From NCBI RefSeq assembly GCF_002117485.1, contig NZ_CP021033.1, positions 434,001 to 498,000 of the forward strand: DNA of 64,000 bases, given 5' to 3'. The DNA is from Rhizobium sp. NXC14. GTDB taxonomy: Bacteria > Pseudomonadota > Alphaproteobacteria > Rhizobiales > Rhizobiaceae. Position numbers and translations under genes: made by a program. This document shows, in pieces, positions 51,803 through 64,000 of this stretch; position 1 is the first letter of the stretch, and each line of letters opens with the position of its first letter. The notes below the pieces were generated by a model, which was given only the letters and a program-made list of their open reading frames with translations, was not told where the DNA came from and ran no database searches.

Positions 51803-52840
51803 GTGGAACGTAAAGTCAATCTCAAGGATGTCGCGCGCGATGCCGACGTGTCGCTGAGCACGGCCTCGCACGCCCTGAACGGAACTGCGCCGCTCACGAT
51901 CGAGGTGCGGGAAAGAGTGCTGGATTCGGCAAAACGTCTCGGCTATCTCGACCGCCGGAGAAAGAAGGCGACGATCGCCGCATTGCACGTTCTGCTTCTC
52001 GCCATTCCTGACGATGCCGCGCCGGAGAGCGATCTCAACCTGGTGAGCTGGACCATTCTCAACGGTCTTCGCAGGGAATGCGAGCGTCGAGGCGTCCGCA
52101 TCGTACCCTATGTCAGCAGCGGCCGGCGCATCGACGGCGCCGAGGTCAGGAAGATCGCGATAGCAGAACGCGCTGACGGCATCGTGGTGCTGAACGATGA
52201 TCAGCCCGAACTCATCCGCAGCCTCGCCTCGGCTAACATGCCCGTCGTCATCGTCAACGGTGAGGATCCGGCCATGCTGGTCGATACTGTGACGCCTGAA
52301 AACCGCTTCGGCGCACGGCTCGGCATCGAGCACCTCATGGCGCTCGGCCACCGCCGGATCCTGCATCTGACCTGGAAAGGCCGCACGACCATCCAGCGCC
52401 GGTATGACGGTTTTTCCGATGCCTATTTGGCCGCACAGCTTCCGGTGCCGGAGGACATGATCATCGAGGCCGAGGGATATGAGCCCCGGCATGGCGAAGC
52501 GGCCATCAACGCGCTGCTCCATCGCGATCCCACGCTGAAAGGCGCCACCGCCGTCTTCTGCGCGGCCGACAATCTGGCGCTCGGCTGCCTGAAGGCATTG
52601 GCCGATCGCGAGATACGCGTGCCCGACGCGATATCTGTGCTCGGTTTCGACGACATCGTTCCCGGCGAGTTCAGCCGCCCGCCGCTGTCCACCGTGAGCG
52701 TGCCGACCGACCGTCTCGGGGCGGCAGCGCTCGCGCTCATCGAACAGCGGCTGATCGCCAATGATCCGCAACGGCCGGCTCATCGCCTCGAACTCGGCTG
52801 CCATCTCGTCCTGCGGGGCAGCATCGCACCGCCGCGCTGA
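51803..52840 (+). CDS. LacI-family transcriptional regulator
   Basis: A 345-residue regulator. Helix-turn-helix and hinge: NLKDVARDADVSLSTASHAL followed by TIEVRERVLDSAKRLGYLDR. The sensor domain has a sugar-binding-protein fold (RADGIVVLNDDQPELIRSLA, then AVFCAADNLALGCLKALADR and SVLGFDDIVPGEFSRPPLST). The GTG at 51803 follows GGCGGAAAAA. No adjacent operon is obvious: TetR lies upstream and a convergent AraC gene downstream. It could act on a distant target such as the pectin locus operators, but nothing here proves that. Confidence 0.92.
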   Translation: MERKVNLKDVARDADVSLSTASHALNGTAPLTIEVRERVLDSAKRLGYLDRRRKKATIAALHVLLLAIPDDAAPESDLNLVSWTILNGLRRECERRGVRIVPYVSSGRRIDGAEVRKIAIAERADGIVVLNDDQPELIRSLASANMPVVIVNGEDPAMLVDTVTPENRFGARLGIEHLMALGHRRILHLTWKGRTTIQRRYDGFSDAYLAAQLPVPEDMIIEAEGYEPRHGEAAINALLHRDPTLKGATAVFCAADNLALGCLKALADREIRVPDAISVLGFDDIVPGEFSRPPLSTVSVPTDRLGAAALALIEQRLIANDPQRPAHRLELGCHLVLRGSIAPPR

Positions 52841-52881: not shown

Positions 52882-53910
52882 TCAGCGCAAACGCTCAGCC
52901 CGTAACCGCGTATCCCTCGGGCTTTCACCAAAAGTGCTGCGGTAGATGATGGAGAACCTGCCGGCGTGCGCAAAACCCCAGATCGCGCAGATTTCGCGGA
53001 CGGATTGCTGGTTTGTCGGATCCCGAAGCTGCTCGCGGGCCGCCTGCAGCCGGATCGTGCGGAGGTAGCTGGCCGGTGAGGTTCCCCTGAACGCCTTGAA
53101 GCCCGTTTGCAGCGCCCGAAGCGAAACGCCGACGCCATCGGCAACCATCGTCATAGTGATAGGTTCCGCGATATTGGCATGCATGTAGTCGATAGCGCGT
53201 CGGACATGCCAAGGTGCGATCAACGATACTTTCTTTTTTTCCAGATGATCGGAAAACCGATGCCGGCCAAATCGGATCACGAGGTGAGCAAGAGTTTCGC
53301 TCATCGCGGCTGCGGCAAGAGGCGAAGATAGCAACGGACCGGCGCCGCGCATGCCCTGCACGATCGTCTGGAGCAGATTGCCGATCAGTTGGCCTGACTG
53401 CGTCGCGCGATCGAGAATCGGGTCGAGATCGAACGACTCCGAGAGGGGCTTTTCCACCAGCGAGGCGAGGACCCTTTTCACAACCTTCCAGTCCAGAAAA
53501 AGGGCGTCCGAGCGGTGCGGTCCTCCCTGGACCACACGATCGCCGACTTCGTGATTGTTGGCCATGAGAAAGTAACCGGCGCCGCTTTCGACCGTTCTCT
53601 TTCCTATCGACAGTCGAAAAGAGCCTGTGTGCGGCATGAAAAACGCGAGATGCTGCGGAGAGTCATCAAGCGTCCGAATCGTCCAGGAACTCTGATAGAC
53701 CGAATGAAGCACCGTGAGCGCCTCGGTCCTTCTCAGATCCGCGCCCCAGGCGAATTTTCGGTCATCCTTCAACGGCTGTGCGCCGAAAACGCCGTAACCA
53801 GCCGTAAAGGCCTGAACCATTGATTCGAAGCTGGTGCCTCCATGCGTGGGCTCGAATCCATAACCACGATGCTCGGCAATTGCCATTTTCTCCCGTGTTA
53901 ACGCATCCAT
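52882..53910 (-). CDS. AraC-family transcriptional regulator
   Basis: A 342-residue regulator. The C-terminal AraC/XylS DNA-binding domain is clear: RRAIDYMHANIAEPITMTMV, helix-turn-helix ADGVGVSLRALQTGFKAFRG, then PASYLRTIRLQAAREQLRDP and the second motif VREICAIWGFAHAGRFSIIY. The N-terminal 230 residues are an AraC-binding-domain-2 type region as in oxygenase or choline regulators. ATG 53910 (MDALTREKMAIAEHRGYG) is likely; a start at 54297 would run through the intergenic region. It is divergent from the ROK regulator. Confidence 0.88.
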   Translation of the reverse strand: MDALTREKMAIAEHRGYGFEPTHGGTSFESMVQAFTAGYGVFGAQPLKDDRKFAWGADLRRTEALTVLHSVYQSSWTIRTLDDSPQHLAFFMPHTGSFRLSIGKRTVESGAGYFLMANNHEVGDRVVQGGPHRSDALFLDWKVVKRVLASLVEKPLSESFDLDPILDRATQSGQLIGNLLQTIVQGMRGAGPLLSSPLAAAAMSETLAHLVIRFGRHRFSDHLEKKKVSLIAPWHVRRAIDYMHANIAEPITMTMVADGVGVSLRALQTGFKAFRGTSPASYLRTIRLQAAREQLRDPTNQQSVREICAIWGFAHAGRFSIIYRSTFGESPRDTRLRAERLR

Positions 53911-54046
53911 GCCGCTCGGTTCTTTTCTTCTGCCGCCTGACATCATCGCGACTGGTCTGGCCAATCTTGATGGGTTAAGCAGGACCGGCAAAACCACGGA
54001 TGATTTCGTTGCCCCGCAGAAGCAAAGCGTCCCCTCCACCTGCTTC

Positions 54047-54061
54047 ACACTTACAGTGTAA
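54047..54061. promoter_or_regulatory. Palindrome between AraC and ROK genes
   Basis: ACACT-TAC-AGTGT (54047-54059) and the overlapping perfect TTACAGTGTAA (54051-54061) form a compact palindromic site, 18 bp before the ROK start. It could be an operator for the ROK protein or the AraC protein. Confidence 0.4.
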
Positions 54062-54078
54062 ATCAATATGTTTGGAAA

Positions 54079-55230
54079 ATGAAGTACGCTCCGCTGGACC
54101 ACGTTGCCCCACATTTCCTGCGAGACACAGAGCCCGCGAGAGTAGCCTCCCGTAACGAACGGGACCTTTTGCGGTTGATTTGGAAGTCGCCCGGCATCGA
54201 GCGCTCCAGCCTGACCGACCCACTCGATCTCACTCAGCAATCGCTGCACAGAATCGTCGGCCGGCTTCATGATCGGGGAATGGTCGTCTTTTCCCAATCG
54301 GAAAACCGGCGCGCCGGTCCACCAAGTCCGGAGCTGACACTGCGAAGGGAGTGGTGTCTGACGCTCGGCATCTCCATCAACGTCGGAACGATTGGCCTTT
54401 GCCTCATGGGTTTCGGCGAACCATTGGATAATATGGAAATTCCCCAGGCCGGCTCGTCGCTATCCCTGGAAATGGAGCGGATCGAAGCAGCCGTCGAACA
54501 GATCCTCGCCCGGCGCGGCGCCAAGCGGCGCGACATCCTCGGCGTCGGCCTCGCCGTCTCCGGCCATCGTATGCTGGATACGGCTTTCAATTGTCCCCTG
54601 CCGCTCGCCCACTGGTCGCTGATCGATCTGGCGCCAGTGCTTGGGGAGCGGCTTGGGCTGCCGGTCTGGGCGGACAATGTCGCCAGGACTGCGGCCTTGG
54701 CGGAAGCAATTTTCGGCGTCGGGCGTGACGTTGCCGATTTTGCCTATATCGCCCACCTTCATGGCTATGGCGGCGGCCTTGTCTCCGGCGGCATGCCGTT
54801 TCGCGGCAGTTTCGGAAATGCCGGCGAAATCTCCGTTCTTTTCGGGCGTCAGGACTACGATGATCGCCCCGCTCTCAACCAGCTGCTCGAGCATCTTCGC
54901 GGCAAGGGGCGCAGCGGCCTGACCCTGAGGGATCTGAAGGACGAAAATATGGTGGAGTGGGATGGTGTCGAGGAATGGATCGACCGCGTCACTCCGGCCC
55001 ACAATCGTGCCATCAACGCGATCTGTGCGATCTTCGACCCGGCATTGATCGTGCTTGGCGGCGAGCTTCCACATTCGCTTGCGAGAATGTTGATCGAACG
55101 CACCGAATTCAACAATCTGCCTCGGCATGGCGCCTTGCGCGACATCCCGCAGCTCGCAGTGGCCCAGATCATCGATGCCCCCGGCGCGGTCGGCGCAGCA
55201 TTGATCCCGCTATTCGAGACCGTTTTGTGA
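54079..55230 (+). CDS. ROK-family transcriptional regulator
   Basis: A 383-residue NagC/Mlc-like protein. The N-terminal winged helix reads NERDLLRLIWKSPGIERSSL followed by LTQQSLHRIVGRLHDRGMVV. The ROK domain has an ASKHA fold: ILGVGLAVSGHRM, VWADNVARTAALAEAIFG, HGYGGGLVSGGMPFRGSFGN and AICAIFDPALIVLGGELPHS. The ROK zinc motif CxCGxxGCxE is not seen, which is common in regulator members. It probably senses a sugar; the sugar ABC and pectin operon that follows convergently is a possible target. ATG 54079 has only a weak TTGGAAA site. Confidence 0.9.
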   Translation: MKYAPLDHVAPHFLRDTEPARVASRNERDLLRLIWKSPGIERSSLTDPLDLTQQSLHRIVGRLHDRGMVVFSQSENRRAGPPSPELTLRREWCLTLGISINVGTIGLCLMGFGEPLDNMEIPQAGSSLSLEMERIEAAVEQILARRGAKRRDILGVGLAVSGHRMLDTAFNCPLPLAHWSLIDLAPVLGERLGLPVWADNVARTAALAEAIFGVGRDVADFAYIAHLHGYGGGLVSGGMPFRGSFGNAGEISVLFGRQDYDDRPALNQLLEHLRGKGRSGLTLRDLKDENMVEWDGVEEWIDRVTPAHNRAINAICAIFDPALIVLGGELPHSLARMLIERTEFNNLPRHGALRDIPQLAVAQIIDAPGAVGAALIPLFETVL

Positions 55231-55402: not shown

Positions 55403-56449
55403 TCACTTCATTCCTGTACCAGCGATGCCCGTGGTGATGTACTTCTGCAGGAACAGGAACACGATCGTGACGGGCAGTAGGCTGAGGAAGGTCATCGCCA
55501 GGATATAGTGCCACTGCACCGAGAACTCACCTTGGAAGGCATTGAGTCCGACCTGCAGGGTGAAATTCTCGCGGCTGTTGAGGACGATCAGCGGCCAGAG
55601 GAAATCGTTCCAGCGCCAGAGCACGGAAAAGATCGCCAGCACGGCAAGCGCCGGCGCCGTCAGCGGCAGGATGATCCGCCAGAAGATGCAGAATTCGCTC
55701 GCCGCATCGACGCGTGCCGCCTCGATCAGCTCGTCGGGTATGGTCAGCATGTATTGCCGCAGCAGGAACACGGCCGTCGGCGAGGCGACGGTCGGCAGGA
55801 TCACACCCCAGAGATTATCAGCGAGTCCGACCCCGACGATGACGAGATAGGCAGGGACCATGACGACGGCGAGCGGGATCATCAGCGTCGAGATGATGAT
55901 GACGAACACAGTCGTATCGCCCCGAAACTTGTATTTCGACAGCGCAAAGGCAGCCATGGCGTTGACGATAAGCGTCAGCAGCGTGGCAACCACAGTGACG
56001 AAGACCGAGTTCTTCAGGAAGGTCAGGAAGTTGAAGCGCGTCAGAGGATCGGTGTAGTTCTCGGTGGCAACGGTCAGATGCTGGACCGGCGTGATCCCCT
56101 TCACGTCGACACCGAGCGGTTGTCCCGGATTTGCAGGATCGACCATCTGCGCCTTGAGACCGATGCGCCTGATCATGGCCCTTTCACGCTGCTGGCCGTC
56201 AATCGTGACGTTCCAAAGGCTGAGCGGCTTGTCGAATCCGGGCACGGTCTGCTCCACGGCGGCCCGCGGAAGCAGCGACGGCGGAAAGCGGGTGATCTCG
56301 GCCGCCGGTTTCAGCGAGGAGAGGCCTGCCCAGACGACGGGAATGAGCACGGCGAGCGTTCCGCCGATCAGCCAGACCCATGACAAAACATCGGTGATAT
56401 CGATGCGTCCGGCTCGGCGTGTGCGTGAGAGAAAACTGATCGGGTTCAT
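55403..56449 (-). CDS. Sugar ABC transporter permease (MalG-type)
   Basis: A 348-residue inner-membrane permease. After a short cytoplasmic start (MNPISFLSRTRR) and one helix (VWLIGGTLAVLIPVVWAGLS) there is a large periplasmic loop of about 130 residues, then five helices with the EAA loop ELIEAARVDAASEFCIFWRI. The C-terminus ends KYITTGIAGTGMK, as in the MalG group. The large loop recalls maltose-type transporters. The gene starts 1 bp after the other permease's stop, with GGAG 7 nt before the ATG. It belongs to the pectin-oligosaccharide operon. Confidence 0.92.
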   Translation of the reverse strand: MNPISFLSRTRRAGRIDITDVLSWVWLIGGTLAVLIPVVWAGLSSLKPAAEITRFPPSLLPRAAVEQTVPGFDKPLSLWNVTIDGQQRERAMIRRIGLKAQMVDPANPGQPLGVDVKGITPVQHLTVATENYTDPLTRFNFLTFLKNSVFVTVVATLLTLIVNAMAAFALSKYKFRGDTTVFVIIISTLMIPLAVVMVPAYLVIVGVGLADNLWGVILPTVASPTAVFLLRQYMLTIPDELIEAARVDAASEFCIFWRIILPLTAPALAVLAIFSVLWRWNDFLWPLIVLNSRENFTLQVGLNAFQGEFSVQWHYILAMTFLSLLPVTIVFLFLQKYITTGIAGTGMK

Positions 56450-56450
56450 C

Positions 56451-57446
56451 TCAGGACTCCATTCGCTTGCCCAAGCGCAGCTGTATGAGGGTGAGAACCA
56501 GAAGCACCATCCCCATGAGAACCGATGCGGCCGACGCAAGCCCGAAGAGACGGAGATCGCTGCCGAAAGCCATCTGGTAGATATATTGGACGATGAAGCT
56601 GTTGGCCGTGCCCGGACCGCCGCCATTGGTCAGAACCCAGGCTTCGTCAAAGATTTGCACCGACTTGATCATCAGAAGGATGAATACGACAAGCAGGTTC
56701 GGAGCAAGAAGCGGAAGCGTGATCCTGAACAGTGTGCGGCGCGGCGAAGCGGCGTCGATGGACGCGGCCTCGTAAAGATCTTTTGGGATCGCCTGGAGGC
56801 CGGCGAGCAGGATCAGGGTGTAAAAGCCCATATGGAACCAGACCGACACGACCACGACGAAAAAGCGCGACCAGCCGACATCAAGCAGGAAGATCTCAGG
56901 GGGAACGCCAAGCATCTCAAAGAAGGCGTTCAGCAGCCCGTTGCGATCGAGGAACCACTTCCAGATCAGGCCGATCACGACGGGAGACAGCAGAACGGGA
57001 TAGAAGAACATCGCCCGGAAGAAGCCACGCGCGAAGATCGCCCGGTTGAGGATCAGCGCCGTGATCAGCGCCACCAGCAGCGTGGCGACGACATTGCAGG
57101 CCACGAACCAAACTGTGTTCCACACCGCCGTCCAGAACAGCGATTCCTGACAGGTTCCCGGCTGCAGATAATTGCCGCAGGTCAGCAGGGTGCGGAAGTT
57201 GTCAAGACCGACGAACGGCCGCTCCGAAACGAACAGATTGGTGCCGCCGGTGAAGGCGTAGCCGACCGCGATCGCGATGGGAAGGAAGGTGAAGATGGCA
57301 AACAGAATGAGGTTCGGCGCCAGGAACAGCCATGGCATCCGCTTCCGGCCGAACAGACGCTCGATGGCATTCATCGGCGCCTCGACCACCCTCATCGCCG
57401 TTTCGCCTGTCTGGGAAAGCAATGTACCGGCCGTGAGCTCTGCCAT
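56451..57446 (-). CDS. Sugar ABC transporter permease (MalF-type)
   Basis: A 331-residue inner-membrane permease. Six hydrophobic segments (for example WLFLAPNLILFAIFTFLPIA) and the EAA loop DLYEAASIDAASPRRTLFRI are visible. The region ETLFR-like RITLPLLAPNLLVVFILLMI follows the loop, and the motif LTNGGGPGTANSF is typical for the MalF partner. ATG 57446 sits within TGAGATG directly after the ATPase stop, with GGAGG upstream. It pairs with the MalG-type permease encoded next. Confidence 0.92.
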   Translation of the reverse strand: MAELTAGTLLSQTGETAMRVVEAPMNAIERLFGRKRMPWLFLAPNLILFAIFTFLPIAIAVGYAFTGGTNLFVSERPFVGLDNFRTLLTCGNYLQPGTCQESLFWTAVWNTVWFVACNVVATLLVALITALILNRAIFARGFFRAMFFYPVLLSPVVIGLIWKWFLDRNGLLNAFFEMLGVPPEIFLLDVGWSRFFVVVVSVWFHMGFYTLILLAGLQAIPKDLYEAASIDAASPRRTLFRITLPLLAPNLLVVFILLMIKSVQIFDEAWVLTNGGGPGTANSFIVQYIYQMAFGSDLRLFGLASAASVLMGMVLLVLTLIQLRLGKRMES

Positions 57447-57447
57447 C

Positions 57448-58554
57448 TCAGCGCCTCCCCTGCCCTGACCGTCTGCCGAAGGCTAGGCTGCTTTCGGGAT
57501 CGAACAGATGAACGCGGGCTGGATCGGCGTCGATCATGATCCGTTCGCCCGAGACCGGCGCGAAATGGCCGGCTTCATGGATGATGATTTGATCGTCCTG
57601 CCCCGCGAGACTGCCATAGACATAAGTCTCGGTCCCGAGCCCTTCGTGATACTCAGCGACGAATGGCAGGCCCCGCTCGCTGGATCGGGTGAAATGCGCA
57701 GGCCGGATACCGGCAATAACCGACTGACCGACCGCAACGCCGGCGGGATCGACATTGCTGACGATCGTGCCTCCGTTGCCGACATCGACGACGACGCCGC
57801 TTTCGCCGACGCCCGAGACCTTGCCCTTGATGATATTCATGCGCGGCGAGCCGAGGAATCCGGCGACGAAGAGATTGCGCGGATGATCGAAGAGCTCCAG
57901 CGGTGCGCCGACCTGCTCAACCCGACCCGCGCGCAAAACGACGATCTTGTCGGCCATGGTCATCGCCTCGACCTGGTCGTGAGTGACATAGATCATCGTC
58001 GTCTTGATGTCGCGATGGAGCTTGGTGATCTCGGCGCGGGTCTGGACGCGCAGGGCCGCATCGAGGTTCGACAGCGGTTCGTCGAAGAGGAAGATGTCGG
58101 GCTCGCGTACGATCGCCCGTCCGATCGCTACACGCTGGCGCTGGCCGCCGGAAAGCTGCTTCGGACGCCGGTCGAGATAAGGTTCGATCGCCAGCATTCT
58201 GGCCGCCTCGGCAATGCGCGCCTCGATTTCGGCACGCTTGAACTTCAGATTTTCTAGGCCGAAAGCAAGATTCTTGCGTACGCTCATATGCGGATAGAGC
58301 GCATAGGACTGGAAGACCATCGCGATTTTGCGCTCGGCCGGCGACAGCGCGCTGACGTCGCGGCCACCGATCGCGATTGCGCCCGAAGTCACCTCCTCAA
58401 GGCCCGCGATGACCCGCAATAGAGTGGACTTGCCGCACCCCGACGGACCGACGAAGACGACGAACTCGCCGTCCTTGATGTCGAGTTCGACGTCATGCAG
58501 GATTTTGACGGCGCCATATGACTTGTTGACGGTGGAAAGTTTCAGTTCTGCCAT
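57448..58554 (-). CDS. Sugar ABC transporter ATPase (MsmK/UgpC-type)
   Basis: A 368-residue ATPase of the carbohydrate-uptake-1 type. Walker A VGPSGCGKSTLLRVIAGLE, signature LSGGQRQRVAIGRAI, Walker B DIFLFDEPLSNLDAAL and switch His in IYVTHDQVEAMTM are present. A C-terminal TOBE-like region (about 240-350) follows, as in multi-sugar ATPases. The gene overlaps the GH28 gene by 13 bp at its 5' end and touches the first permease at its 3' end. It energises import of oligosaccharide bound by the divergently encoded binding protein. Confidence 0.94.
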   Translation of the reverse strand: MAELKLSTVNKSYGAVKILHDVELDIKDGEFVVFVGPSGCGKSTLLRVIAGLEEVTSGAIAIGGRDVSALSPAERKIAMVFQSYALYPHMSVRKNLAFGLENLKFKRAEIEARIAEAARMLAIEPYLDRRPKQLSGGQRQRVAIGRAIVREPDIFLFDEPLSNLDAALRVQTRAEITKLHRDIKTTMIYVTHDQVEAMTMADKIVVLRAGRVEQVGAPLELFDHPRNLFVAGFLGSPRMNIIKGKVSGVGESGVVVDVGNGGTIVSNVDPAGVAVGQSVIAGIRPAHFTRSSERGLPFVAEYHEGLGTETYVYGSLAGQDDQIIIHEAGHFAPVSGERIMIDADPARVHLFDPESSLAFGRRSGQGRR

Positions 58555-59906
58555 GCCCCACTCCCATCAGGTGCCGCCGTTTCGAAGACGACGTCGTTTT
58601 CGTTCCAGCCTTGCGGCAATGGTGTCGGCCTCGTGATCCGCACCTCTTTCATCAAGATTCCGGCGACATCGACCACATAGACGGCCGGCATCCCCCGGGG
58701 ATAGTCCTGCAGGCCGATCACCCGCCCGTCCGAACCGCGGGTCCAGGCATTGGCACGCCCGCCGCCATCGGCCCTCGGCGCGAGGTCGGCATTCGTCGGG
58801 CGCAGGTCGTAGGTCCGCCCGGTGCCGAGCTCTCCGGGCTGCTGATCGACGGCGATACGGGTCAACGACACGTTCCGGATGCCTGACGGCGCTGCCGCAA
58901 TGATGGTGATCGCGCCTTCCATCCGGCCGGTCACATCTTCGACGATGAGATTTTCGATGGCGCCCGCAGGGCGTTCAGCGATACGGTCGACGACATTGAC
59001 GGTCAGCGCCTCCCCAGAACCCCAGAAACCATCCGGCGTTTCGCGGCACTCTACCGATATTCGGGAAAACCTCACATTCGAGATCCGGCCGCCGTCGCGG
59101 GAGAATATGCCGAGCGCCCGGCTAGAGGACGAGACGCTGCAATCCTCGAACAGAACATTGGTGACATCGCCATGTGTTTCCGTGCCGATCTTCAGCGCGC
59201 AGCTCAAGCTCTGAACGGAGCAGCGGCGCACGAGAATGTTCTCGCACCGGCCAATCGCCAGACCTTCAGGGCCGATGCTCGTCTTCAGGCATATGCCGTC
59301 ATCGGCCGTCGATATGCTGCAATCCTCGATGACGGCGCCGCGGCAGGCGTCGAGCACGATGCCATCCGTATTGGGTAGGCGACGGTCGTTTTCGATGGTG
59401 ACGTTTCGGACCGCGACATCGGTGCAATCGACGAAATGCAGCGTCCACATCGGCGAGCGGCTGATGGTGACGGAACTGATCTCGACCTCGTCGCAGCCTT
59501 CGAAGACGACGACGCGAGGACGGAATTCGGCAGGAATGAAAGTTCCCACCGTCTCGTCGTCGCCAATGATGAAGTTCTCGCAACCGGCTTCGATGCGTCC
59601 TTTTCCCGTCAGGCTGATCCGCCGCGCATCGCTCGCCACGATCATGCCGCGATCCGACTTTTCCGCGATCACCGAAACCGTCGTATGCGCATAAGCGGCA
59701 TAATCGGGAATGGGACGCAGGATCGCACCGGCGGCCAGGTGCAGATCGACGCCGGATCGCAGCCGGAGCCCCCTGCAGAGGTGGATGCCCGCCAGGAGTT
59801 CCAGGCGCCCGCCGCCGGAAGCCGACAGACGGTCGATCGCCGCCTGCAGACGGTCGGTATTGTCGCTGTCGAGCGGCTCAATCGCGACGAGGGAAGGAGC
59901 ACTCAT
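58542..59906 (-). CDS. Polygalacturonase-like GH28 glycosidase, cytoplasmic
   Basis: A 454-residue right-handed beta-helix protein. GH28 marks: RRLPNTDGIVLDACRGAVIE (the NTD motif), then STADDGICLKT (the DD motif) and CALKIGTETHG, which corresponds to the RIK region. The usual G-x-GH motif is not clear. The start MSAPSLVAIEPLDSDNT has no signal peptide, so it probably acts in the cytoplasm as an exo-type enzyme on imported oligogalacturonides. Its ATG overlaps the GH105 stop (ATGA) and its end overlaps the ATPase gene by 13 bp, so it is tightly coupled in the operon. Confidence 0.88.
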   Translation of the reverse strand: MSAPSLVAIEPLDSDNTDRLQAAIDRLSASGGGRLELLAGIHLCRGLRLRSGVDLHLAAGAILRPIPDYAAYAHTTVSVIAEKSDRGMIVASDARRISLTGKGRIEAGCENFIIGDDETVGTFIPAEFRPRVVVFEGCDEVEISSVTISRSPMWTLHFVDCTDVAVRNVTIENDRRLPNTDGIVLDACRGAVIEDCSISTADDGICLKTSIGPEGLAIGRCENILVRRCSVQSLSCALKIGTETHGDVTNVLFEDCSVSSSSRALGIFSRDGGRISNVRFSRISVECRETPDGFWGSGEALTVNVVDRIAERPAGAIENLIVEDVTGRMEGAITIIAAAPSGIRNVSLTRIAVDQQPGELGTGRTYDLRPTNADLAPRADGGGRANAWTRGSDGRVIGLQDYPRGMPAVYVVDVAGILMKEVRITRPTPLPQGWNENDVVFETAAPDGSGAWQN

Positions 59907-60997
59907 TGGCGGCGGCCACTCTCGATAAAGACTTCGGTCAGAAGCAGCATGGTCAGCGCCTGGCCGTAAGGCGTCGGCAGGTTCGGGATGCGCCGGTAGA
60001 AATCGAGATCGCGGCCCATGGGCGTGCCGTCCGAAACGCCGTGGACGACACCTTCGTCATCGATCTGTGCCAGCACGGCCTTGAGCGCACGCTCTGCATA
60101 GACCTTGTCGCTCTTGTCGAGGATGCCGGCATCGATGGCGCGCAATATGCCATAGGCAATACCCGCCGTTGCCGAGGTTTCGAGCGGCGAGGACGGATCG
60201 TCCAGAAGCGTCGTGAACATGCCATCAGGCCGCTGGCAAGCCTTCAGCGTGCGCACCTGGCTCACGAGGACGTTCGAGAGGAAACGCCGATCCTTCTCGC
60301 CGAGCGTCGGCACGAGATCGAAGAGCTCGGGGATCGCAACGGTGATCCAGGCATTGCCCCGCGCCCAGAAGGCGTTGGCGAAATTATGCCGGCCGTTGAA
60401 GGTCCAGCCGTGATACCAGAGGCCGCTCACCGGATCGGAGAGATAGCGGGTGTGGATGATGAACTGATAGACGGCCTCGTCGATCCAGTCATTGCGCTCG
60501 CAGAGGACGCCGGCCTGGGCAAGGAAGAGGCAGGCCATGAACAGTGTGTCGTCCCACAATTCGCCGTCGTTGAGACGCTCCTTGACGACGTGCTGGAAGC
60601 CGCCATCCTCGGTCTTCGGCAATTCCTTGATCAGCCATTCGGCCCAGTCTTCGACGAGGGCGCGGAAATCCGGACGGTCGATGTGCTGGACGAGGATTGC
60701 GAGCGGCAGCATCGGCGCCGTGCTGTTGATCTGGCGTGGCGGAATACCGCGTTCGATCTGGGCGCTGTACCAGGCAACGAGCTCCTCGAGCGCTTTCTGG
60801 TCATTGGCGGAAATCGCACGCCGGAGGAATCCATAAAGGCCGACGCCGACTTCCCAGTCCCATTCGTCGAACTGGATGCCGGAGGCGGCATTGTCCGTCA
60901 CGAGACCTTCCTTGATGCCCTTGAGCCGGCTGAAAGCCGTCGCCACGCGATCGATCGTCGTCTGGAGGGCGGCGATGTCGGCAGATGCTGTGTTCAT
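59903..60997 (-). CDS. Unsaturated galacturonyl hydrolase (GH88/GH105)
   Basis: A 364-residue (alpha/alpha)6-barrel enzyme. Marks: EWDWEVGVGLYGFLR, RIPPRQ-like loop GIPPRQINSTAPMLPLAILV, catalytic Asp in GELWDDTLFMACLFLAQ, HNFANAFWARGNAWI and a second Asp region near SATAGIAYGILRAID. GH105 enzymes hydrolyse the unsaturated uronic acid at the end of rhamnogalacturonan or pectin fragments left by a lyase. There is no signal peptide. It sits between the large unknown protein and GH28, with a 4-bp overlap to GH28 and 16 bp from the unknown gene. Confidence 0.9.
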   Translation of the reverse strand: MNTASADIAALQTTIDRVATAFSRLKGIKEGLVTDNAASGIQFDEWDWEVGVGLYGFLRRAISANDQKALEELVAWYSAQIERGIPPRQINSTAPMLPLAILVQHIDRPDFRALVEDWAEWLIKELPKTEDGGFQHVVKERLNDGELWDDTLFMACLFLAQAGVLCERNDWIDEAVYQFIIHTRYLSDPVSGLWYHGWTFNGRHNFANAFWARGNAWITVAIPELFDLVPTLGEKDRRFLSNVLVSQVRTLKACQRPDGMFTTLLDDPSSPLETSATAGIAYGILRAIDAGILDKSDKVYAERALKAVLAQIDDEGVVHGVSDGTPMGRDLDFYRRIPNLPTPYGQALTMLLLTEVFIESGRRQ

Positions 60998-61013: not shown

Positions 61014-63536
61014 TCAGGAGTAGAAGGGCCCGTCAGTGCCGGCTTGGGACACGGCGCTATCGTGGGTGAGGATCGGATCTGGCTGATCATGCGTGAACGG
61101 CCGGGGCTTACCGGCGATCGAAAGACCGTCGGCATAGGAAAGAGCGATCGCCGGTCCGCCCGGCGGCGTCAGGGAAAGACGCCGAAGCGTGGGATCGAAT
61201 GAAACCGTCGTCTGGCACAGACGCTCGATGAAAGCCTTGAAGGCATCGTCATTGCCGGATGATATGATGGCTCCCCAGCCGCAGAGCGGTCCGTACGAGC
61301 GCACCTCACGATCGGCGGTCGGGCCATCGGTGATCAGTTCCAGGCCGTTCGACGCCCAGAGGGCGGCAAATCCCCTGCCCGATCGGGCGACCAGCCACTT
61401 GCCTTCAATAATGAGATCGTCGAGACCGTCGCGGCCGACATAGGCGTGCGTCCAGGCATGCCGCGCGTCACCCGTATCTTCGATCAAAAGCGCGACGTCG
61501 CGATGCTGGGCGACGCGCGGCAGGATGCCGTTGCCGGCCCAATAGGACGGTCTTTGATTGCCCCAGGGATCGTCTTCACCGGGATGGTTGACCCAGAGCC
61601 TTGCCATCGGGTGGCCGGCCAGCCTGATGTCGAGAACATGCTGCTGATGCCCCTTGCGGCCGGTCTTGTGGTCGACCACCGTCGAAAGCTGCGCGGCCTC
61701 GTTCTTGAACAGCACGAGCTTTCCGCTCTCGAGCCCCTGGCTATAGCGCGCCTCGACGCTTCGTCCTCGCGGAAGTGCGGCAAGCTCGGCAAGATCGGCC
61801 GGCGGCTCATAATCGCCGGCGCAGAACATGGTCAAAGCAGCCACACCGTTGTTCAGCCAGCCCGTTCCGAAGGCGACCTGGGCGAAGGGCGCCAACTCCG
61901 TCAGCGGGCCGGCGCGCAGTTCCTTGTCGTAGGCACGGCCCTGCGATCCCGCGGGAACGCCGGCGAGCGTGTGAAGGGCGATCATGCGGAAGATGAGATC
62001 GATCTGGCCGCGGGCGCGGTCGGCAATCCCGCTCTCGGCCCAGCGCTCGAGCGCCAGCAGGCCGATGAAATCGATCGGGTAGTAGGCGGCCGAGTTCCAC
62101 TCCGCGAGACCATGGGCTTCGACGCTGTCGAACCAGCGCCCGAGGCGCTCGACGGCGAGCGCCGCCTGCTGCCGCCCGGTTCGGCCCGAAGCGGAAAAGA
62201 CCTCGTCGGGCAGAAGAAGCCCGGCCAGAAGCTGGCTCGTGTGGAAGCAGAGCACGTGGTTCTCGCTCCAGAACCACATCGCATCGTTGCCCGGCTCGTC
62301 GACCCAGTAGCGATAGGTGAGAACGGAATGGCGGATGCGGTCGACCGTCGCCCTGGGCATCCGGTCGCCGTAGGCGCCGAGCAGCCAGAGCAGCGGCACC
62401 ATGATGAAATCCGAGCAGTCCTCACGCGCATCGATGGAGGCAAGCGTGGCATTGACGATGCGCTCGAAGCTCTCCCGGTCTTCGTAGCCGGTTTCCATCA
62501 TCGCAATGAGACGACCGGCGCGGTTGGCGCCGAAGCGGGCGCTGTATTGCAGCGCCTGGCGTTTGCGGGCGGAAAGCGATGCCTCGGCCGGCAATGGAGA
62601 AATGGCGCTCATGAAGGCAGCGTCGATGACGCGGGTGACCGAGCCCGGTCCGGAGCCGATCGTCATGTGAATGCCGTGATAACCGTCCGCAATGGCGCAG
62701 ATATCCTCGGCGATCAACCGGTTCTGCTGCGGATGCAGGATCAAATGCACATGGGCGAGGAGCGGCCGTTCGTGACCATGGCCGACGACCTTGATCTCCA
62801 CCGGCAGGTCGCGCTCGGGCGCGGTGTCGAAGATGATTTCCACAGGCTGATTGACGAAGACGTCATGGGCCGGGCGAACGCCGCGCACAAGGCCCTCCAG
62901 CTCGCGAACCTCATCCTGGTCGAGCGCCACCGGCAGCAGCACCGTGAGTGGTTCCTCATCCAGCATTTCAAGTTCGAAGAACCAGGTCGTGTCGCGCTCG
63001 GCAAGATCTTCGGTGTGGACGAGAACCTCGTTGTCGCCGGCTTCGAGCTGCAAGCTGATCTCAGTCGCGCTCTCGACATTGCGCTTGAAGGGCTCGAAGC
63101 GCACCGCCTCCTGCCCGTTCACCCATATGCGCACCCCGCCGCAGGTCTTCAGCGCCAGATTGAGCGTGCGCGGTGCCTCTGTCCTGAACGTGCCCTTCAG
63201 CCATTTCCTGACATGCGTCGGCACATGCCAGAAGCTGGTGAACTCGACGCGGCGGTTCGAGCCGGGGAGATGAAGGCTTGTGGTCGGCCAGGACGCGTCG
63301 GGCAGAAGCGGCCGCCCCACCATGGTCGACCAGAAGGCCTTCCGGCAAGGCAGGTCGCCGACATCGACGAAACCGTTGATGAAACGATAGTTCACGCGAT
63401 CTTCGGCAGGAGCCGGCTCGCCGGGAAAATAGTCGGCGATGAGGCCGGACACGGCCCATGCCGTTATCGTCTCGCCTTTGGCAACGCCATAGGCTGGCGC
63501 CATGTCGTCGGGTTGCTTGACGCTTTCCGCCTGCAC
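61014..63536 (-). CDS. Large multidomain protein of unknown family in pectin locus
   Basis: An 840-residue cytoplasmic protein that I do not recognise. The layout, by composition, is: a beta-rich N-terminal region (about 15-200; AFWSTMVGRPLLP, then GGVRIWVNGQEAVRFEP, like a galactose-binding jelly roll); an Ig-like stretch (about 230-310); a helical part (about 320-610) with FWSENHVLCFHTSQLLAGL and LAEWNSAAYYPIDFIGLLAL, resembling an (alpha/alpha) toroid; and a C-terminal beta region (KLVLFKNEAAQLSTVVDHKT). Toroid plus beta-sandwich is the layout of several polysaccharide-lyase families, so a lyase or hydrolase on pectin fragments is an inference; the Asn-His of SENH and the Tyr of AAYYP are candidate catalytic residues. 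Start: GTG 63536 after GGAGGAGG. It leads the operon. Confidence 0.8.
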   Translation of the reverse strand: MQAESVKQPDDMAPAYGVAKGETITAWAVSGLIADYFPGEPAPAEDRVNYRFINGFVDVGDLPCRKAFWSTMVGRPLLPDASWPTTSLHLPGSNRRVEFTSFWHVPTHVRKWLKGTFRTEAPRTLNLALKTCGGVRIWVNGQEAVRFEPFKRNVESATEISLQLEAGDNEVLVHTEDLAERDTTWFFELEMLDEEPLTVLLPVALDQDEVRELEGLVRGVRPAHDVFVNQPVEIIFDTAPERDLPVEIKVVGHGHERPLLAHVHLILHPQQNRLIAEDICAIADGYHGIHMTIGSGPGSVTRVIDAAFMSAISPLPAEASLSARKRQALQYSARFGANRAGRLIAMMETGYEDRESFERIVNATLASIDAREDCSDFIMVPLLWLLGAYGDRMPRATVDRIRHSVLTYRYWVDEPGNDAMWFWSENHVLCFHTSQLLAGLLLPDEVFSASGRTGRQQAALAVERLGRWFDSVEAHGLAEWNSAAYYPIDFIGLLALERWAESGIADRARGQIDLIFRMIALHTLAGVPAGSQGRAYDKELRAGPLTELAPFAQVAFGTGWLNNGVAALTMFCAGDYEPPADLAELAALPRGRSVEARYSQGLESGKLVLFKNEAAQLSTVVDHKTGRKGHQQHVLDIRLAGHPMARLWVNHPGEDDPWGNQRPSYWAGNGILPRVAQHRDVALLIEDTGDARHAWTHAYVGRDGLDDLIIEGKWLVARSGRGFAALWASNGLELITDGPTADREVRSYGPLCGWGAIISSGNDDAFKAFIERLCQTTVSFDPTLRRLSLTPPGGPAIALSYADGLSIAGKPRPFTHDQPDPILTHDSAVSQAGTDGPFYS

Positions 63537-63558: not shown

Positions 63559-63574
63559 ATGAAAATATTTTCAT
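63559..63574. promoter_or_regulatory. Perfect 16-bp palindrome, operator candidate 1
   Basis: ATGAAAATATTTTCAT is a perfect palindrome located 22 bp before the GTG start of the pectin operon (63536). A near copy lies exactly 140 bp away at 63699-63714. The pair is likely bound by one regulator. Confidence 0.75.
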
Positions 63575-63698: not shown

Positions 63699-63714
63699 AT
63701 GAAAATGTTTTCAT
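63699..63714. promoter_or_regulatory. 16-bp palindrome, operator candidate 2
   Basis: ATGAAAATGTTTTCAT differs from the first copy by one base at the centre. It directly precedes the GGGAGG ribosome site of the binding-protein gene (start 63727), so a bound protein would cover its 5' leader. Confidence 0.72.
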
Positions 63715-63726
63715 GGGAGGATGAAA

Positions 63727-64000
63727 ATGAAAACCTATCTCTCAGGGGCTTTCGCACTGGCGCTGGCCACCGTTTCCTTCGCCTGGTCGAGCGTCGCCAT
63801 GGCGGAAACCCAGACGATCACCTTTCTCTTCACCGACGACGACCAGGCTTACGTCGAGCGGATGGAAGCACTGAGCAAGGAATTCGAGGCGGCGCATCCC
63901 GACATCAAGGTGAATTTCGTTTCGTCGGGCTATGATGCCGTCGCCAAACAGCTGCCGGTGCAGCTTGCCATCGGCGAAGGGCCCGACGTTGCCAAGATCA
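63727..64000 (+). CDS. Sugar ABC transporter binding protein (3' end outside window)
   Basis: The first 91 residues of a family-1 extracellular solute-binding protein. Signal peptide MKTYLSGAFALALATVSFAW with cleavage near SVAMA; the mature start TQTITFLFTDDDQAYVERME is followed by EFEAAHPDIKVNFVSSGYDA and LPVQLAIGEGPDVAKI, typical of MalE-like proteins. GGAGGATGAAA precedes the ATG. It reads away from the operon with the matching permeases and ATPase, and an operator palindrome sits directly before its ribosome site. It should capture pectin-derived oligosaccharide for that transporter. Confidence 0.9.
   Translation, partial: MKTYLSGAFALALATVSFAWSSVAMAETQTITFLFTDDDQAYVERMEALSKEFEAAHPDIKVNFVSSGYDAVAKQLPVQLAIGEGPDVAKI

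Follow-up and report, generated by a model that had tools for sequence, protein, structure and literature searches.

A predicted cytoplasmic lyase of toroid plus antiparallel-beta fold, coupled to GH105 in a Rhizobium operon proposed to serve pectic oligosaccharides

Enzymes of family GH105 act on unsaturated ends, and KduI and KduD consume their product. Among the lyases of toroid fold, Table 4 of PMC12088678 gives an Asn or similar residue as carboxylate neutraliser, a Tyr and usually a His from the beta domain. The spacing from Asn to Tyr, as we compute it from that table, is 54 residues in PL35, PL12 and the exo-heparinase of PL15, 57 in PL17, 53 in PL39, 59 in PL8 chondroitin AC lyase and 63 in PL23. 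For PL15 and PL17 it has been argued that this Tyr may serve as acid and base alike (PMC11921355). A LacI-regulated (RhiR) rhamnogalacturonide cluster, 'rhi', with an ATP-binding cassette (ABC) importer and 'rhamnohydrolases', has been predicted in Rhizobiales and Erwinia (PMC3870299). This work concerns an 840-residue lyase-like protein of Rhizobium sp. NXC14, which we call TORO (a paralogous subfamily is called TORO2), encoded at 61014..63536 on the minus strand of the 64,000-nucleotide stretch analysed here (the window, G000:C4:434001-498000, of a 6.69 Mb genome). We believe that TORO is probably a cytoplasmic carbohydrate lyase with an (alpha/alpha)-toroid plus antiparallel-beta fold, acting one step before GH105 on acidic pectic oligosaccharides. 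The predicted structure, the conserved residues and the gene neighbourhood all point this way.

The TORO gene is real. Its frame runs for 840 codons from a GTG start at 63536 to a stop at 61014, with GGAGGAGG 6 bases upstream of the start, and frame 1 of the plus strand across the same positions is interrupted by stops. Close relatives are of equal length, and in most of them the start, at the corresponding position, is ATG. At least 544 relatives were found at E<=1e-3, of which 120 were listed; the search scored no more than the 7998 candidates with most words in common. An alignment of 85 sequences has 70 invariant columns, across two subfamilies that are about 30% identical to each other. 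The frame is more than chance because of these relatives and invariant columns. The first-pass annotation had described a long protein without a signal peptide, and this is borne out: over residues 1-60 no 15-residue stretch has a mean hydropathy above 1.13, a value that reaches 1.83 in the exported binding protein of the operon, so there is no hydrophobic leader. The two motifs it had picked out are also present, SENH at residues 424-427 and AAYYP at residues 483-487.

The AlphaFold2 model of TORO (pLDDT 90.8) has the build that had been read from the letters alone: a jelly-roll-like start, a helical middle and a beta-rich end. An N-terminal jelly roll resembling PA14 and GH2 domains is predicted for residues 15-204 (62925..63494, minus strand, as for the other domains), followed by a second beta domain with approximate boundaries at residues 205-312 (62601..62924). 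The model and the structure search together place a helical toroid at residues 318-590 (61767..62585) and a C-terminal beta domain at residues 594-830 (61047..61757). An (alpha/alpha) toroid followed by a C-terminal antiparallel beta domain is what defines the fold of PL8, PL12, PL15, PL17, PL21, PL23, PL35 and PL39, and the model has this arrangement. When the whole protein was searched with Foldseek, the list was filled by jelly-roll matches (GH2 enzymes and macroglobulins, with TM scores of 0.09-0.16). The jelly roll had swamped the search, and therefore the toroid and C-terminal beta part were modelled and searched alone. Against the PDB this catalytic part matched 16 chains at E<=0.001, and all 16 are lyases of the toroid plus antiparallel-beta fold, the best being the PL15 exo-lyases (Atu3025: 3afl, 3a0o) at 1.4e-7. 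In a further structure listing 46 of 50 rows fit the same fold. No PL26, PL4, PL11 or PL9 chain is named among the structure matches listed, which is no evidence of a difference. The toroid and beta domain are predicted with confidence, and a fold lacking the toroid was not seen.

Conservation argues for the same kind of enzyme. We compared 255 sequences, made up of 237 of 242 proteins (five were dropped for length) and 18 from the loci described below, and tabulated 54 positions picked for their conservation. Thirty of them are identical in all 255 sequences, among them Asn426, His427, Tyr485, Arg534, Tyr536, Asn650, Arg662, Trp666 and His697. Asn426 and His427 of the SENH motif (62256..62267, minus strand) are the candidate carboxylate neutraliser and base by comparison with PMC12088678 Table 4, and Tyr485 of AAYYP (62082..62084, minus strand) is the candidate catalytic acid. 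Matched by sequence position and not by superposition, the spacing from Asn426 to Tyr485 is 59, inside the lyase range of 53-63. The beta-domain histidine could be any of several: His697 is identical in 255 of 255 sequences, His651 in 243, and His630 and His633 in 131.

No named family in Pfam, NCBIfam or the PDB sequences accounts for TORO, as far as sequence comparison goes. Neither Pfam nor NCBIfam has a match above its cut-off, the best Pfam model being PF21467 (E 0.13, 12.9 bits against a cut-off of 27.3). Searches of the PDB by phmmer and by a profile of 85 relatives gave no useful match; the best, at E 0.013, is a mitochondrial protein that covers the N-terminal part of TORO. A confident match to a characterised family of another function, which would have told against the earlier proposal, was not found in these three collections. 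None of the Pfam lyase models matches at E<=1, PF07940 included, and hhalign gives a probability of 1.4% for TORO against 28 PF07940 proteins (2 of 30 loci were dropped). Membership of the PF07940 heparinase II/III sequence family was considered and rejected on these two results. The named relatives, among the matches listed, are called hypothetical protein, except that UniRef has given some of them automatic names, for example Heparinase II/III-like (P0026, P0058) and PA14 domain-containing. Family members occur in 9 of 398 genomes sampled over the phylum, the host included, and 4 of these 9 belong to another class. In the literature within reach, which left out CAZy and most subscription papers, we recognised no description of TORO as a lyase. 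We do not place TORO in an existing PL family because no sequence relation to one was found and we infer its activity.

The neighbouring GH105 bears on the function. Named genomes gave 587 loci, of which we examined the best 80. In 77 of these 80 GH105 lies 15-120 bases behind TORO, measured between the ends of tblastn matches; the exceptions are L072, L077 and L074, and in the last the contig stops 549 bases on. Among 121 Rhizobiaceae genomes TORO occurs in 16 and this GH105 subfamily in 17 over the cut-off (20 at E<=0.001). All 16 genomes with TORO also have the GH105, one has the GH105 alone and 104 have neither (Fisher p 4.8e-19, with no correction for the relatedness of the genomes). There are 21 TORO genes in this set, and a hand count finds GH105 within about 1 kb of 18 of them, one as a fragment under the cut-off; the others are the host's paralog, a paralog in genome G043 and a gene in the draft genome G478. 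The two proteins are even fused in 4 of the 120 listed proteins, of 1189-1201 residues (P0091, P0098, P0243 and P0244).

The genes of the next steps appear as well, in several lineages. KduI is found in 9 of the 80 loci and KduD in 6. By NCBIfam equivalog score, KduI is confirmed in three loci (L076, L133, L142) and KduD in two (L076, L133), the rest resting on tblastn. The TORO2 operons of three Rhizobiaceae genomes (L140-L142) have the order GH105, KduI, TORO2, binding protein, continuing as far as the ATPase; a LacI gene is divergent from them, and in one of the three KduD comes next. In L133-L135 TORO2, GH105, KduI and KduD stand together within the stretch that was fetched. The host itself has KduI and KduD on C3, a single GH105 and one GH28 over the cut-off, with a second that narrowly falls short (22.6 bits, the cut-off being 22.9). 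PL1 and PL22 were not found in the host genome, where other lyase families were not searched; one PF07940 protein is encoded there, on C1. Near the KduI and KduD genes on C3 we also see a gene for a 1093-residue glycoside-phosphorylase-like protein with SOGP and GH94 domains (L139 1982-5263, G000:C3) and a GntR-type regulator. The first-pass annotation had suggested a lyase or hydrolase that makes the substrate of GH105. Adjacency, co-occurrence, the fusions and the presence of KduI and KduD all favour such a role, and of the two activities a lyase is the better supported.

We picture the pathway as follows. The ABC importer would bring in acidic pectic oligosaccharides, of which rhamnogalacturonan fragments are the likeliest, and TORO would hold a uronic acid between its toroid and beta domain. 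The carboxylate may be neutralised by Asn426 together with His427, and the C5 proton abstracted by His427, Tyr485 or a His of the beta domain acting as base; protonation of the leaving sugar by Tyr485 would then give a 4,5-unsaturated uronyl end. GH105 would then hydrolyse this end off, the resulting deoxyketouronate passing to KduI and then KduD, and GH28 would remove ordinary galacturonic acid (GalA) ends.

If TORO is a lyase, we lean towards rhamnogalacturonan as its substrate, and rhamnogalacturonan oligosaccharides are the likeliest form. Only one genome, G446, has this GH105 subfamily without TORO, and there rhamnose genes lie beside GH105 (L144 5849-15476): rhamnulokinase, rhamnulose-phosphate aldolase and rhamnose mutarotase score over the curated cut-off and a RhaS-like regulator scores under it. 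An importer that we read by eye as of the tripartite ATP-independent periplasmic (TRAP) type belongs to the same locus, which is possibly a system for ready-made unsaturated GalA-rhamnose. Two findings speak against rhamnogalacturonan: none of the 82 TORO loci, nor the window, has rhamnose genes, and the type of importer varies among TORO loci. A lyase feeding GH105 could instead cleave a uronic acid glycan other than pectin, for example a glucuronate-bearing arabinogalactan or a bacterial polysaccharide. We consider this unlikely. GH28, a galacturonan family, is present in 67 of the 80 loci, and the closest solved relatives of the operon's own GH28 are 5olp and the exo-polygalacturonosidase 3jur. 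The G446 GH105 adjoins genes of rhamnose catabolism, and a similar cluster has been predicted for rhamnogalacturonides in the text of PMC3870299.

Several observations pull away from a lyase of any kind. TORO could be a six-hairpin toroid glycoside hydrolase, for example an alpha-L-rhamnosidase or a galacturonidase, which trims imported oligosaccharides and exposes for GH105 unsaturated ends that other organisms made outside. PMC3870299 mentions 'rhamnohydrolases' in the Rhizobiales 'rhi' cluster, and UniRef has automatically named one relative (P0022) 'Alpha-L-rhamnosidase six-hairpin glycosidase'. The invariant residues include many acidic ones (Asp413, Glu414, Asp418, Glu425, Glu479, Glu654 and Glu744), and toroid hydrolases do appear lower in the structure lists. 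Those hydrolases (1v7v, 3k11 and 6fhn) align over the toroid only, for 214-241 residues, however; GH146 and GH92 match the catalytic part at E>=0.02, and no hydrolase matches it at E<=0.001. The Asn-His/Tyr pattern belongs to lyases in PMC12088678. Unsaturated ends are what GH105 acts on, and the genome search turned up neither PL1 nor PL22 as a source of them. We therefore regard a hydrolase as quite improbable. That TORO breaks no bond at all, being either a uronyl epimerase with this fold or an inactive protein that serves to hold GH105, is very improbable, since the invariant positions go beyond what a scaffold needs and KduI and KduD in the clusters indicate unsaturated uronates, not epimers.

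The operon reads TORO, GH105, GH28, ATPase, permease, permease on one strand, so the claim that TORO leads it ahead of GH105, GH28 and an ABC importer holds. The first five genes are separated by a 16-base gap, a 4-base overlap, a 13-base overlap and a 1-base gap. All lie on the minus strand: GH105 (PF07470; NCBIfam NF051900) at 59903..60997 and GH28 (PF00295; NCBIfam PglB model) at 58542..59906, both assigned by Pfam, NCBIfam and PDB relatives; the sugar ABC importer ATPase at 57448..58554 and permease 1 at 56451..57446, by Pfam and NCBIfam; and permease 2 at 55403..56449, its start set by the gene length in CIAT 652. The NCBIfam label of the GH105 gene, 'beta-galactosidase BglB', looks doubtful, the closest solved relatives being GH105 proteins (3qwt, 4xuv). 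A sugar-binding protein gene, annotated so in relatives, diverges on the plus strand from 63721, running through the window's end at 64000 and beyond it (C4:497721-499013). The first-pass annotation mentioned neither this divergence nor the strand of TORO. In another locus (L073 6730-7959) a 409-residue protein with a weak HAD-hydrolase match (E 8.4e-4, below the cut-off) is encoded between the lyase-like gene and ABC ATPases of the peptide type, and a frame in L072 has a similar start.

Two palindromes in the divergent promoter, ATGAAAATATTTTCAT at 63559..63574 before TORO and ATGAAAATGTTTTCAT at 63699..63714 before the binding-protein gene, are probable LacI-type operators, judging from genome and locus searches. 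The pattern ATGAAAANNTTTTCAT occurs exactly twice in the host genome, at these two places, and the reversed control pattern nowhere. Its 14-base core stands in the promoter in 53 of the 80 loci, with no copy elsewhere in them. Even when up to 2 mismatches are allowed, the palindrome is absent from 16 kb around the host KduI and from 19 kb around the paralog of TORO; elsewhere in the genome the search was for the exact 16-mer only. The LacI-family gene at 51803..52840 (plus strand), with a similar gene in 47 of the 80 loci, likely encodes the partner of both palindromes, a repressor that probably controls both divergent promoters by binding them. ROK and AraC-type regulator genes lie between the operon and this gene (52882-55230), as in some relatives; the pair looks inserted because in many other relatives the LacI gene is directly behind the importer.

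The paralog, on C1 (L004 10526-13045; G000:C1:2178525-2181044), is 34% identical to TORO and belongs to the TORO2 subfamily; its own search gave 783 relatives, which may overlap with those of TORO. It is accompanied by a LacI gene and importer genes of its own (binding protein, permeases and ATPase). GH105, GH28 and KduI are not among its neighbours; relatives in other genomes have GH105 and KduI in front.

Whether the family should count as a new polysaccharide lyase family seems to us evenly balanced. Such a family would be intracellular and probably act on fragments of rhamnogalacturonan; its members would carry a PA14/GH2-like front ahead of a toroid-sandwich core, fall into two deeply split subfamilies and sometimes be fused to GH105 as one bifunctional polypeptide. 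It would complete a cytoplasmic route from lyase through GH105 and KduI to KduD in bacteria such as the host, where the search gave no PL1 or PL22 lyase. A function would be assigned to hundreds of unnamed proteins from plant-associated bacteria, toroid lyases would gain a sequence family, and the source of substrate for the host's single GH105 would be explained. Since root mucilage and fragments of cell walls feed rhizobia and agrobacteria, a cytoplasmic rhamnogalacturonan route would bear on root colonisation: in R. phaseoli Ch24-10 maize root exudate induces a GH28 gene, which may be other than that of this operon (PMC8581550).

How does TORO compare with what is already described? The PL26 rhamnogalacturonan exo-lyases are exo-acting and work with GH105. 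TORO matches no lyase model at E<=1 in the Pfam library, which presumably covers PL26. It shares its fold class with the heparinase II/III family PF07940, whose name UniRef gives to two relatives, but the profile comparisons above separate them. PL35 GAGases (8khv, 8khw) and the PL17 and PL39 alginate lyases likewise have no sequence match to TORO; their substrates are glycosaminoglycans and alginate, and their beta-domain His has no settled counterpart in it. The PL15 exo-lyases (Atu3025 and exo-heparinase) come closest in their toroid plus antiparallel-beta core, and exo-heparinase has an Asn-His pair and then a Tyr (Asn336, His337, Tyr390; PMC12088678 Table 4), as TORO does. Unlike PL15, TORO has no sequence match to that family, an extra PA14/GH2-like front and GH105 and GH28 as gene partners. 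In the route of RhiN/YteR-type GH105 enzymes (RhiT-RhiN, RhaS), as far as PMC3870299 describes it, a cytoplasmic GH105, products for KduI and KduD and the type of substrate are all as proposed here, but secreted lyases make the unsaturated ends, while TORO is leaderless and encoded beside GH105. The available text of PMC3870299 names no lyase in its 'rhi' cluster. That cluster shares a LacI regulator, an ABC importer and a probable rhamnogalacturonide theme with the operon described here, which has the palindromes and GH105 as well. The TORO operon, and a locus like it in two genomes from another class of the phylum (L136, L137), fit the 'rhi' cluster as that paper outlines it, and the cluster and the TORO operon may be the same system.
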